Below, piece after piece: positions 16,035-33,535 of a DNA stretch of 36,787 bases (the first letter of the stretch is position 1; every line of letters begins with the position of its first letter). The stretch lies in contig JAITKM010000004.1 in assembly GCA_031278395.1 (NCBI GenBank), forward strand, positions 1 through 36,787, given 5' to 3'. This DNA comes from Deltaproteobacteria bacterium. GTDB lineage: Bacteria; Bdellovibrionota_C; UBA2361; SZUA-149; JAITKM01. A program made the position numbers and the translations under genes. Under the pieces are notes generated by a model, which searched no databases, was not told the DNA's origin, and was given only the letters and a program-made list of their open reading frames with translations.

Positions 16035-16676
16035 ATGCCAACATTCTATGATTACGGGTATATATACCCTAGTGAGAAAAGTAAAAGGTTAGAAAATTTA
16101 TTAAGTATTGAGGAGCAAGAATCATATAATACTTTGTTATCAGGGCAGGCGACTTGTTTATCACGCTCGCAGATTGGGGAGTTAAAAGAGACCTATAAGA
16201 AACATGTGAATGCCGTCTGTTTATATCTGCTGGGTTGCAGGTCAATCAATGTTAATGATTTACCGAGTAAAGAATTTTGGAATTTATCAGAGTTATCAGA
16301 TCATGACACTGGTCAATTAAGAGTTGAAGCCAGTGGGGTTTTGCATACTACTGTTAAGAATAACAGGATTATAATGTTGCCTAACCATGTTAGTGAAGAA
16401 AACTGGCAAAAGTTTTATACCGAAGTATTTTCTTATTATAAATATACGGCTAGTGGCACTAATTGGATTATGGATTTTTCAATTGTGAGCGATATTCCAG
16501 AAAATTTTTGGGTGAACATTATTACTTACAATTATAAACTACGCTCTTTGGGTGGTGAGTTGTATTTATGCTGGGTTCATCATAGCATTTTGCCACAGCA
16601 AAATTTGGCTGGAATTTGTTCATTTTTCAGGCTAAAACGCATCGGTGATTTTTATTTTTCGACAGTTAATGTTTAG
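16035..16676 (+). CDS. STAS-like domain protein, 213 residues
   Basis: The C-terminal half (about 107-205) has the strand-helix order of STAS/anti-sigma-antagonist domains: NRIIMLPNHVSEENWQKFY, then WIMDFSIVSDIPENFWVNII, then LRSLGGELYLCWV. This matches the typical lDls.v..i.s...... l...G..l.l pattern. The phosphorylatable DSSG serine of SpoIIAA-type proteins is absent (SDIPENF), so a phospho-switch at that site is unlikely. The N-terminal half is helical and unrecognised. AGGAG lies nine bases before the ATG. The stop overlaps the stop of the convergent gene by four bases. A partner-switching role alongside the SpoIIE-type phosphatase at 31387 is only a guess. Confidence 0.55.
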   Translation: MPTFYDYGYIYPSEKSKRLENLLSIEEQESYNTLLSGQATCLSRSQIGELKETYKKHVNAVCLYLLGCRSINVNDLPSKEFWNLSELSDHDTGQLRVEASGVLHTTVKNNRIIMLPNHVSEENWQKFYTEVFSYYKYTASGTNWIMDFSIVSDIPENFWVNIITYNYKLRSLGGELYLCWVHHSILPQQNLAGICSFFRLKRIGDFYFSTVNV

Positions 16677-17131
16677 ACTGAATAGCCATCTTTATTTTTC
16701 TTCACTAGGCTTCGCAATAATAATTTAATATCTTCGGGAGTTGCCTTAGCTAGCGTATTGATTTCAGTGGAGGAAAGCATGGTAACCATTTTAATTGCTT
16801 CTTTTCTAGCGTTATTTTTCATGACTACTATTTCGTCCGGATTATTTGTTGACTGTGTATCGTTTTTTTCTTGAGTTAGGTTTTTGACAATCTTTTCTAT
16901 TAGCTCAGATTTAACTCCAGATTGAGAGCTAAATACCTCGTCAGTTAATTTGCTCTTGCCGGCTTGTTTGCTAACGATATTTGTAATGTGTGGTTGATAG
17001 TTGAGCAAAGAAATTTCTTTAATATTCTGATCGATATTAGAATTATAAATATCAGTAACTTTAGATTTACTAATTTCTTTGTTTCTATTATCTGTGGCGC
17101 CTGATATTGGCTTTCGATACTTGAGAGTCAT
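16673..17131 (-). CDS. Hypothetical protein, 152 residues
   Basis: I do not recognise it. The product is polar, Lys/Asn/Ser-rich, and mostly predicted disordered up to about residue 105. A short helical C-terminal domain (RKEAIKMVTMLSSTEINTLA then TPEDIKLLLRSLVKK) could bind a partner. No membrane segment or signal. It is convergent with the STAS-like gene and shares four bases at the stop codons. Its promoter lies in the hairpin-rich stretch to the right. The tail-to-tail overlap does not itself indicate functional linkage. Confidence 0.6.
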   Translation of the reverse strand: MTLKYRKPISGATDNRNKEISKSKVTDIYNSNIDQNIKEISLLNYQPHITNIVSKQAGKSKLTDEVFSSQSGVKSELIEKIVKNLTQEKNDTQSTNNPDEIVVMKNNARKEAIKMVTMLSSTEINTLAKATPEDIKLLLRSLVKKNKDGYSV

Positions 17132-17231
17132 TTTAAAAAACCTAAAAAGAATTACCTAAAGAATGGTGGAGAAGACAGAATAAATTTTTTGAAAACCTTT
17201 ATTATTGTAAAAATAATAAAAAGAAAAAATT

Positions 17232-17312
17232 CCCCCAAAACTTCTAGTTTTTTAGCCAAGTGAAACGATTGACTTGCGCAAAAAAAACTAGAAGCCTTTT
17301 TTTGGGGGGGGG
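17232..17312. repeat. Long imperfect hairpin with poly-G end
   Basis: CTTCTAGTTTTTT (17241-17253) pairs with AAAAAACTAGAAG (17282-17294). The stem is extended outward by CCCCCAAAA against TTTTTTTGGGGGGGGG with a small bulge, and inward by CAAGT/ACTTG. The run of nine G at 17304-17312 is unusual in this genome. It may terminate leftward transcripts from the MEMO operon, although no clean T-run follows the stem on that strand. Confidence 0.7.
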
Positions 17313-17415
17313 CTAAAGTAAATCCTTAGAGCTTATTTAAAACTAACTTCATTGTTTAGTCCTTTCTTTTGTTGTGGAGGGACTATAGGTTACGTTAAGT
17401 TTAAGAGGTTTGCTT

Positions 17416-17468
17416 GTTTGCTTTTTACGGCAATAAAAAACAAACTTTAAACTAAATTTCGACCGTAA
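17416..17468. repeat. Hairpin with possible pseudoknot
   Basis: GTTTGCTTTTT (17416-17426) pairs with AAAAAACAAAC (17435-17445), one mismatch. TTACGG, which overlaps the loop (17425-17430), is complementary to CCGTAA downstream (17463-17468), an H-type pseudoknot arrangement. An alternative outer pairing, AGTTTAAGAGGTTTG (17398-17412) with CAAACTTTAAACT (17441-17453), competes with the hairpin. Confidence 0.5.
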
Positions 17469-17476
17469 TGCCTATC

Positions 17477-17549
17477 ATACATCAAAATATTTCTGATGTA
17501 TTGTCCTCCGTTGTTGATTTTTACAAGAAAAAAACGATTATTGATGTAT
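17477..17549. repeat. Inverted repeat with two alternative right arms
   Basis: ATACATCA (17477-17484) is complementary both to TGATGTAT at 17494-17501 and to a second TGATGTAT at 17542-17549. The two pairings exclude each other, as in an attenuator-type switch. Confidence 0.5.
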
Positions 17550-17552
17550 ATT

Positions 17553-17625
17553 AAAAAATAAAAAACCTTTTTATTTTTTTATTCTGTCTCTCAATTAAAT
17601 TGGTTTAACAATTTAATTGAGAGAC
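17553..17625. repeat. Tandem hairpins: A/T 12-bp stem and 17-bp perfect stem
   Basis: AAAAAATAAAAA (17553-17564) pairs with TTTTTATTTTTT (17568-17579). Directly beside it GTCTCTCAATTAAATTG (17586-17602) pairs perfectly with 17609-17625 across a 6-base loop, GTTTAA. No T-run follows the 17-bp stem on the plus strand and an A-run follows on the minus strand, so a normal terminator is unlikely. Confidence 0.75.
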
Positions 17626-17797
17626 TAACTAATCTCTTCTACTCTGATTTACATATATAGAATATGTTATGAAGAGTTTTTTTAAAAAGTATCCTTTAAA
17701 TTTTATTTTTTTTATTGCATTTAAAATAGTTAATAAAAACAATAGATTATCTGAAATTTTTTTATTTCAAAAGAATGAAGTAATCCTAATTAACATA

Positions 17798-19423
17798 TTA
17801 CTCTATTGAAACTACTTGATATGTTTGTACAACTAAATTACCACTTCTCCACTCGTCTTTATCTAGTCCGGCTTTAAGACACAGGTGTGATAAAAAGTCT
17901 TCTTTATTTGGCAGCTGCTCCCAGACTTGGGGCAAGAAAGTCGCTTTATGAAATCCTTTTTGCAGAATGACGCCAGTTTTTCCAACTTCTAAAGCAGTTA
18001 GCAACTCGGCAGTTGTTCTATATGTTAAGTGTTCTGGTTTAGTCAAAATGGAAATCTCAATTTCTATGTCTTTTAACTCTTCAGGCTGGACAGCTGAAAA
18101 CCTGGTATCGTCTAGGGCGGCGCTAATTGTGTTGGCGATAACGCTTTTATATATTGGCTGTATAGCGATTAGATCTCCAATACAGCCACGGAGGTTTTTA
18201 TTTTTAGTTAGAGTAACAAAAGTTGCGGCTTTGGTTTTGAGGTAAGGGGATAATCTGGTCGGGTCTAAATTAGCTGCTATTTTTTCTAATATATATGGGG
18301 TATTATTATTAACCGCGGCTGAGAGGGTTTGCCGTGCTAAGTTTAGTAAAAATTGTTTATCATTATCTGTCATTTGCTGATCAGGATCAGTATCAGTAGT
18401 TTGTTGATTTTGTTTGGCGCCATAAAAAACTATAGCTGAATAGCCGACGACTGCTTTTTTATCGCCTGCTGTGTCGCCAGAATTTTTATAATTAACTAGT
18501 TTTGCTTCCCACCCCTTTTCACGGGCTAGCTCAAGTAGGACAAACAGAGCAGGCAAGCCACAAGCTTCGCATTTAACAAGTTTTTCTTGATCAAGCTGAG
18601 TAATAGCATAAACACAATTTGAATCTAATTCTTTCGCCAGCTCAGCTGGGTGATAGTGTGAGAGGTCAGAGGTAATAATTAATAAGGTTTGGTCATCGAG
18701 ATAATTTTTTAATATTTCAGCTAGCGCCAATAAATCTTTAGGCTGACTTGCGCCAGTGATGATGGAGATGAGTTCAAAATTTTTTAAACTGCGCTGGAGA
18801 AAGGGGAGCTGAACTTCTATGATATGGCTTTGATTAGCGTTTTTTTCATAAGTAAAAAGTTTAGGATATTTTTGAACTAGTTCTCTTGAGATGTCCGAGA
18901 TTTTAACTTTTCCAAGTGGGGTTTGGTAGTAGTCTTCTTCAAAGACTGAAAACTTAAAGTGTCCTGCTTTTTCATTATGGTTTGATCCTAAGATGAAAAC
19001 TTTTTTAAATGTTGGGTTTGGGATTAGATTGTTTTGAGTGAAGATTTTGCTAAAACAGTTGGTAGTTTTTGGATCGCATTTGTAATTTTTGATTAAGGTA
19101 GCATATCCTGTGCCTGCGACAGCGCCGGAATAAATATAGCCGGCATGTGGCACGACTAAAGCTTTGATTTGTTCGTTTGGAGTGAGGTGTAAATCTGTCC
19201 ATTCAGAGGTGGATAGGTATTCATCTAATTTTTGGTTTAGTTCTTTTTGGGAATCTGGATAAAAGTAACCAGCTACATATGCCATTCTGGTGGATTGATT
19301 ATCTATCATAGTAATTTTTTCCTTTAGTATTCCTAAATTATATAAAAATCTGCGTTGTAGCCGAGTATTAAAGGTCAGAACTATAAATAAGATTATATAA
19401 GCTATCAAGAGAAATTTTTTCAT
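17798..19423 (-). CDS. Membrane-anchored MEMO-AMMECR1 fusion protein
   Basis: The 541-residue product joins two conserved domains. An N-terminal hydrophobic anchor (about 3-19) precedes a MEMO domain (about 46-335) with VPHAGYIYSG (His93), LGSNHN (His149), SDLSHYHPAE (His256) and CGLPAL (Cys288), plus DTAGDK. The His/Cys positions are those of the family metal site. An AMMECR1 domain follows (about 355-541) with the hallmark LRGCIG at 411-416 and an IEISIL strand. In many bacteria these domains go with a radical-SAM protein (AmmeMemoRadiSam); none is in this window. The anchor would place both domains outside the cytoplasm or tether them to it; topology cannot be told. It is last in a run with M50 and rpoH, 29 bases after the M50 gene. 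Molecular role unknown. Confidence 0.9.
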   Translation of the reverse strand: MKKFLLIAYIILFIVLTFNTRLQRRFLYNLGILKEKITMIDNQSTRMAYVAGYFYPDSQKELNQKLDEYLSTSEWTDLHLTPNEQIKALVVPHAGYIYSGAVAGTGYATLIKNYKCDPKTTNCFSKIFTQNNLIPNPTFKKVFILGSNHNEKAGHFKFSVFEEDYYQTPLGKVKISDISRELVQKYPKLFTYEKNANQSHIIEVQLPFLQRSLKNFELISIITGASQPKDLLALAEILKNYLDDQTLLIITSDLSHYHPAELAKELDSNCVYAITQLDQEKLVKCEACGLPALFVLLELAREKGWEAKLVNYKNSGDTAGDKKAVVGYSAIVFYGAKQNQQTTDTDPDQQMTDNDKQFLLNLARQTLSAAVNNNTPYILEKIAANLDPTRLSPYLKTKAATFVTLTKNKNLRGCIGDLIAIQPIYKSVIANTISAALDDTRFSAVQPEELKDIEIEISILTKPEHLTYRTTAELLTALEVGKTGVILQKGFHKATFLPQVWEQLPNKEDFLSHLCLKAGLDKDEWRSGNLVVQTYQVVSIE

Positions 19424-32586: not shown

Positions 32587-32716
32587 CATTTTAAATTCGT
32601 TAATAAAACTTTTTGTGCTAAAAAATTAAGGTTTGCTAAAATTATGCCGATTAATAAAAAGTAGTATACTGGTATACTGAAAAAATCACATATTTCTTTA
32701 GAGTAGATGAGTAATG

Positions 32717-32756
32717 ACGCTTCTCATGTTAAGTCATGGCTTAACATGAGAAGCGT
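32717..32756. repeat. 17-bp perfect inverted repeat, H1
   Basis: Arms 32717-32733 and 32740-32756, loop TCATGG. No T-run follows on the plus strand. Confidence 0.85.
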
Positions 32757-32878
32757 AGATAGGATGTTAGGTTTTAAAGGCTTAACATATTTTTAAACCA
32801 AACATTAATTGTTTTGTATTCCACATTCTAGAGAGAGGATAAATTGTAGATTAATTTAATCGTCGATTTATTTAAATT

Positions 32879-32927
32879 ACAGAAAACGCTTGGTAAGTAT
32901 GACGCATGCTTAGCAAGCGTTTTCTGT
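32879..32927. repeat. 19-bp inverted repeat with one mismatch, H2
   Basis: Arms 32879-32897 and 32909-32927, 11-base loop. TTTGTTTG follows on the plus strand, so it could end a transcript that began near 32685 or upstream in the phosphatase gene. Confidence 0.8.
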
Positions 32928-32935
32928 TTGTTTGC

Positions 32936-33535
32936 TAATTAGTGGTAAAACTTCCTATTTTTTTTGATAGTTAATTTAAGAAAAACGTAATTTTAAGTAA
33001 TAGAATATCTGCTTACCTTAATTGAGTAAGACGGTGTAAGGTATTTATATTTCTACCCTGAGAAGAAAAATCTTGGTGAGCTAGAATACAAGTGTAGTAT
33101 AGTGGAGCAATCTGCTATCTCAACTTAGTTCTATTATTTGTTATTTGTTTTTAACATCATAATAAAAAATAAGTCGTTTAAACATGCAAAATGATTTGAT
33201 GGTTACTTCAGGATGAAGGAATGTGTATATAACAATCCTCTACGAAATGTAGTAGATTGATGTCTTACAATTATATTGCAGACGGTGGCGAGCTATTATA
33301 ACAAAGTTCGTCTTAACCCCAGCACCAAAATATAATTGCTGACAAATTTATATAGCTGGCTAAGAAATTTAGTTTAATTCACTACAATCTCTGCTCAGCA
33401 GCACAAAGGTTTTTAATTTCTATTTACGCTTCTTTTTATATATTTTTTTATGATAGGAAAAGTAACCTGATACCAGAGAAACATATTACAAAATTCCTAG
33501 ATTAATCTAATAACTGGATATTACTATTACTATCA
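32936..33535. other. Gene-free stretch, nothing recognised
   Basis: About 600 AT-rich bases with no credible reading frame on either strand. A weak hairpin pairs TACCTTA (33014-33020) with TAAGGTA (33036-33042). An extended -10-like TGTTATAAT occurs on the minus strand near 33300. I see no match to tmRNA, SRP RNA, RNase P RNA or a tRNA. Confidence 0.6.
33457..33474 (-). repeat. Dispersed intergenic 18-nt motif, copy 2
   Basis: GGTATCAGGTTACTTTTC on the minus strand, 62 bases from the ybeY stop. Confidence 0.55.

Follow-up and report, generated by a model that had tools for sequence, protein, structure and literature searches.

Does a run of hairpins with competing pairing partners, packed into a stretch without genes, mark a regulatory RNA? 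The question arises from a window of 36,787 nucleotides (the whole stretch of DNA that was analysed; contig C56 of a 63-contig, 1.71-Mb genome of a Deltaproteobacteria bacterium), in which a sequence-only reading had described five hairpins in a gene-free gap and had taken their mutually exclusive pairings as a sign of an RNA switch. We find that an RNA switch is not supported for this gap (17132-17797). The account we favour, if only with moderate confidence, is that of a long 3' spacer, non-coding and closed by a terminator hairpin, H1, with the second strong hairpin, H5, being one of the many palindromes of this genome.

Genomic setting

The gap is bounded on both sides by genes of the same strand:

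17798-19423, minus strand: Memo-AMMECR1 fusion (AmmeMemoRadiSam B+A), upstream of the gap on the minus strand; Pfam and NCBIfam matches
17132-17797: non-coding gap of 666 nt, GC 25%, flanked by two minus-strand genes; evidence from the ORF list, coding hexamers and GC
16673-17131, minus strand: orphan gene of 152 residues, downstream of the gap on the minus strand; coding hexamer signal present

The supposed absence of genes between 17132 and 17797 is borne out, all small open reading frames in the gap having coding hexamer scores near or below zero. The description of the surroundings likewise holds: an M50 peptidase and a sigma-32-type factor (profile score 262 bits, cut-off 241) precede the Memo-AMMECR1 fusion, and on the minus strand the gap lies downstream of this run and before the 152-residue gene. 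The latter receives no family assignment in Pfam/NCBIfam-type profile searches and has no relative at E <= 1e-3 among 14 other genomes of the order, where the best match has an E-value of 0.02. Elsewhere in the genome lies a broken second copy, a piece of an AMMECR1 gene interrupted by stop codons (G000:C25:258021-258179, L027), with 84% DNA identity to positions 18003-18108 of the window. The window also contains a second long gene-free gap, 32587-33535, between a SpoIIE-domain gene and ybeY, with two long hairpins at 32717-32756 (perfect 17 bp) and 32879-32927 (14 bp).

Individual hairpins

All five pairings are present where they had been placed, between 17232 and 17625. The significance of each was judged by its folding energy against 1000 dinucleotide-preserving shuffles, or 600 for the redrawn versions of H2 and H3. 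The elements are as follows, in order of position:

17232-17312, minus strand: H1, long hairpin with CCCCC/GGGGG and CTTCTAGTTTTTT arms, followed on the minus strand by AATTTTTTCTTTTT; probable intrinsic terminator
17357-17385, plus strand: additional small hairpin TAGTCCTTTC/GGAGGGACTA with two G.U pairs on the plus strand; absent from the sequence-only reading
17386-17475, unstranded: H2 redrawn as a longer imperfect hairpin
17477-17501, minus strand: near hairpin of H3, ATACATCA/TGATGTAT, with 11 pairs including one G.U on the minus strand and 8 on the plus strand
17542-17549, unstranded: alternative right arm of H3, a second copy of TGATGTAT
17553-17579, unstranded: H4, 12-bp stem of A/T only, low complexity
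17586-17625, unstranded: H5, perfect 17-bp stem with a 6-base loop, without a T tract at either side

The five hairpins are of very unequal standing. None of the 1000 shuffles matches H1 (17229-17315; z -5.3 on the plus and -5.9 on the minus strand) or H5 (17580-17632; z -8.9 and -9.1), and these two hairpins can be regarded as genuine departures from chance. The A/T-only H4 reaches the 1-2% level (z -3.0 and -2.6, with 10/1000 and 22/1000 shuffles as good). The pairing of H2, to which a pseudoknot option had been ascribed, exists, but as drawn (17416-17468) it does not exceed chance, with z of -0.7 and -0.6 over 1000 shuffles; the longer redrawn hairpin fares better (z about -2.2, equalled in 14-20 of 600 shuffles). 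H3 in its two-arm form is near chance as well (z -0.7 on the plus strand and -2.3, or 2%, on the minus strand); its near hairpin taken alone beats chance, with 0/600 shuffles on the minus strand and 3/600 on the plus strand. The additional hairpin, folded within 17350-17392, is matched by 1/1000 shuffles on the plus strand and 27/1000 on the minus strand. The G.U pairs give conflicting indications of the transcribed strand: those of H3 favour minus, and those of 17357-17385 favour plus.

The gap against the genomic background

Taken as a whole, the gap is strongly structured (z -7.2/-7.4, 100 shuffles), and it is the most structured of the 65 gaps of 450-800 nt in the 1.22 Mb sampled (14 shuffles each). 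With H1 and H5 removed, the part between them (17313-17585) retains z of -2.4 on the plus and -3.2 on the minus strand, and the stretch 17353-17503, from which both strong hairpins are also excluded, still gives -4.2/-4.4.

The clustering of hairpins is a different matter. Perfect hairpins of at least 11 bp number 91 in the 689 gaps of the sampled 1.22 Mb, against 2-8 in each set of shuffled gaps (18 over three sets, about 6 expected), and when the 91 are distributed at random in proportion to gap length, some gap of at most 700 nt receives three of them in 28% of trials. Since long gap hairpins occur throughout the genome and three per gap arises this readily, the cluster by itself is unremarkable for this genome; each strong hairpin is nonetheless far from chance. 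In gaps between genes of one direction, the long hairpins tend somewhat towards the upstream stop codon: of 56, 20 are no more than 40 nt away from it, whereas 6 come that close to the start codon that follows, the expectation being 15 in either case.

A probable 3' spacer ended by H1

What, then, could be the role of H1 and H5? On the minus strand H1 has a folding energy (dG) of -34.8, and it is followed by the U-rich run AATTTTTTCTTTTT; of the 12 bases next to the stem on that side 9 are T, and two A precede the U run. Among 213 gene 3' regions it ranks fourth for terminator-like hairpins. Minus-strand genes flank it on either side, and it stands 489 nt downstream of the Memo stop codon, an unusually long distance. 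We conclude that H1 is probably an intrinsic terminator for minus-strand transcripts, the termination step itself being deduced from the sequence; terminators of this form are unproven for the organism, because T tails in the sense direction are not in excess among its long hairpins as a class (11 vs 15).

The following course of events can be envisaged. RNA polymerase arriving from the sigma-32/M50/Memo-AMMECR1 run, or starting inside the gap, would read through H5 and stop at H1, where a GGGGG-closed stem is succeeded by the U-rich run, so that the gap would form a long 3' UTR with its terminator. No start site could be placed by a promoter scan with TTGACA/TATAAT, a consensus that carries little sense-strand signal in this genome. 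The role of H5, once in RNA, would be limited to that of a 3'-end or stability hairpin; its best reading is that of a 3'-UTR hairpin or a palindromic one. Of the possibilities originally offered for the gap—a long 3' UTR, a leader or an independent RNA—the first emerges as the likeliest, and the key argument for a switch fails, as set out below.

A possible lineage-specific structured RNA

A reading that deserves weighing, unlikely as we hold it to be, takes the region from about 17640 to 17232 of the minus strand as an independent or 3'-UTR-derived structured RNA of some 400 nt, private to the lineage and ending at H1. Its more specific version, in which H5, H3 and the extended H2 form domains of an RNA unlike the curated families, strikes us as quite doubtful. 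The first rank of the gap among 65 of similar size is consistent with such an RNA, and so are the residual structure between H1 and H5, the preference of H3 for the minus strand and the terminator-like end provided by H1. The opposite preference of the hairpin 17357-17385 argues against it, as does base composition: the GC content of 17229-17640 is 30%, the same as the mean of gaps in this genome (25% for the entire gap), against 39-44% for the RNase P, tmRNA and SRP RNA of the same genome.

Nor do comparisons with other sequences speak for this RNA. The sequence-only reading knew of no described family with this order of hairpins, and an Rfam search of the gap returned nothing beyond chance at either gathering or loose thresholds, loose E-values included. 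A DNA search for the gap in its own genome, 96 others, phages and plasmids recovered only the gap itself and A/T-rich low-complexity scraps, and the exact hairpin patterns of H1 and H5 are absent from the viral contigs searched. The 96 genomes include 45 of the same order or class, the nearest belonging to the same order and none to the same family. The two closest same-order homologues of the Memo-AMMECR1 protein, at 43-44% identity, have different neighbours and different gaps, and the named relatives among genome contigs are distant. None of these searches yielded a relative of the gap from which covariation could be read.

Known housekeeping RNAs were considered as well. A divergent RNase P, tmRNA or SRP RNA in the gap was rejected, all three being located elsewhere in the genome. 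The Rfam model that stands for 6S RNA detects nothing in the whole genome, though these three RNAs are detected; judging from the predicted folds, the gap has no fold resembling a rod with a central bubble, and 6S RNA was rejected as a candidate.

Mobile repeats

It is rather unlikely, in our estimate, that H1 and H5 are palindromic mobile-repeat units of the REP or MITE type, or decayed remains of such units. Five places with Y1 transposases and several dispersed palindrome families in the genome speak for it, as does the appearance of H5, that of a perfect palindrome with no T tail. Both hairpins, however, are single copy in the genome, the Y1 transposase genes have no similar hairpin alongside, and no target duplication is apparent at H1 by inspection. 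When the H5 arm is sought genome-wide with up to 3 mismatches, the other matches appear only at the rate of a reversed control.

In a small family of gap hairpins, mostly near stop codons, the CTACC/GGTAG arms vary yet keep pairing, and most members have a TTTTTGCG(T/C)A centre; they resemble GTAG-tagged REPs (PMC3733652) and are found at L097:2752-2794, L094 near 17218, L044:17139-17184, L044 near 10457, L040:8579-8635 and L048:9879-9929. H1 shares TTTTTTGCGCA with the centre of this family; it lacks the CTACC arms, and the likeness is taken as coincidence. A dispersed palindrome family, CACAGAGAGCACAGAGAA ... TTCTCTGTGCTCTCTGTG, occurs at L040:18724-18774 and L077:4774-4841, and also by gene ends in L043, L049 and L055. 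A further one, TGGTATGGGGTTACTTTT ... AAAAGTAACCCCATACCA, occurs at L093:7494-7549, L124:17849-17896 and L106:12798-12833, and also in L040 and L052.

Competing pairings and the switch question

One rival reading takes the gap for a leader that controls the 152-residue gene by a switch or by attenuation; H1 would then terminate conditionally, its formation depending on the pairings upstream of it. In favour of this, H1 and its U run lie 100 nt upstream of the start codon of that gene and on the correct strand; against it, the gene is an orphan and shows no metabolic theme. The mutually exclusive pairings, which had been presented as a switch hallmark, do not withstand comparison with shuffled sequence. 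We counted, in shuffled gaps, 8-mers with two inverted partners within 90 nt: at least one such triplet, of the kind formed by H3 and its alternative right arm, occurs in 28% of shuffled gaps, and the observed number is reached in 12%. Nor is 17382-17553 raised in mean positional entropy, 126/200 and 182/200 shuffles on the two strands being at least as ambiguous. A search of 17313-17640 for an antiterminator partner of H1 yielded none that is convincing (193/300 shuffles were equally good), and an A/U partner further upstream (13/300) is weak and of low complexity. The switch argument fails because the alternative arms are at chance, the entropy does not exceed that of shuffles and there is no convincing H1 antiterminator in 17313-17640. 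The alternative pairings of H2 and H3 are best read as by-products of AT-rich sequence, and a leader that acts by switching or attenuation is improbable.

A role at the level of DNA, as an operator palindrome or replication origin, is highly improbable: H5 is indeed a perfect inverted repeat around six central bases, but its arm does not recur above the reversed control, the gap has no DnaA box at one mismatch, dnaA is on another contig and a six-box cluster lies elsewhere. That cluster, six DnaA-box-like 9-mers in 500 nt at L110:12423-12923 (G000:C47), is the densest in 1.22 Mb and constitutes a candidate replication origin.

Comparison with known systems

If the gap is an ordinary spacer, as we favour, the main lesson is that hairpin clusters and competing arms are to be expected in AT-rich genomes loaded with intergenic palindromes and do not alone point to RNA switches. 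Should transcription of the gap yield a separate folded RNA instead, this would be a new RNA from a poorly sampled lineage.

Each of the nearest known systems is matched in part. With the GTAG-tagged REPs (Di Nocera et al. 2013, PMC3733652) the two strong hairpins have in common that they are palindromes in the gaps of a genome with Y1 (IS200/RAYT-type) transposases; unlike those REPs, H1 and H5 are single copy and have no GTAG tag. H1 shares with Rho-independent terminators a stable G-C-closed stem followed, on the minus strand, by a U-rich run, and departs from them in its hairpin length of 77 nt, in the two A that precede the U run and in its large distance from the stop codon; H5 departs from them in having no U run at all. 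Elements of the same general kind are covered by surveys of bacterial stem-loops (PMC1590033, PMC2267715). Long stable stems are over-represented in bacterial gaps, towards the 3' ends of genes (Petrillo et al. 2006, PMC1590033), and in low-GC firmicutes they often have an A-rich stretch pairing to a 3' U run (PMC1590033). The A/T part of H1 resembles this A-rich/U-run pairing, whereas its distance of 489 nt from the stop codon and the grouping of several stems, including two of unusual strength, within a single long gap set the locus apart from the stem-loops of Petrillo et al. (PMC1590033).
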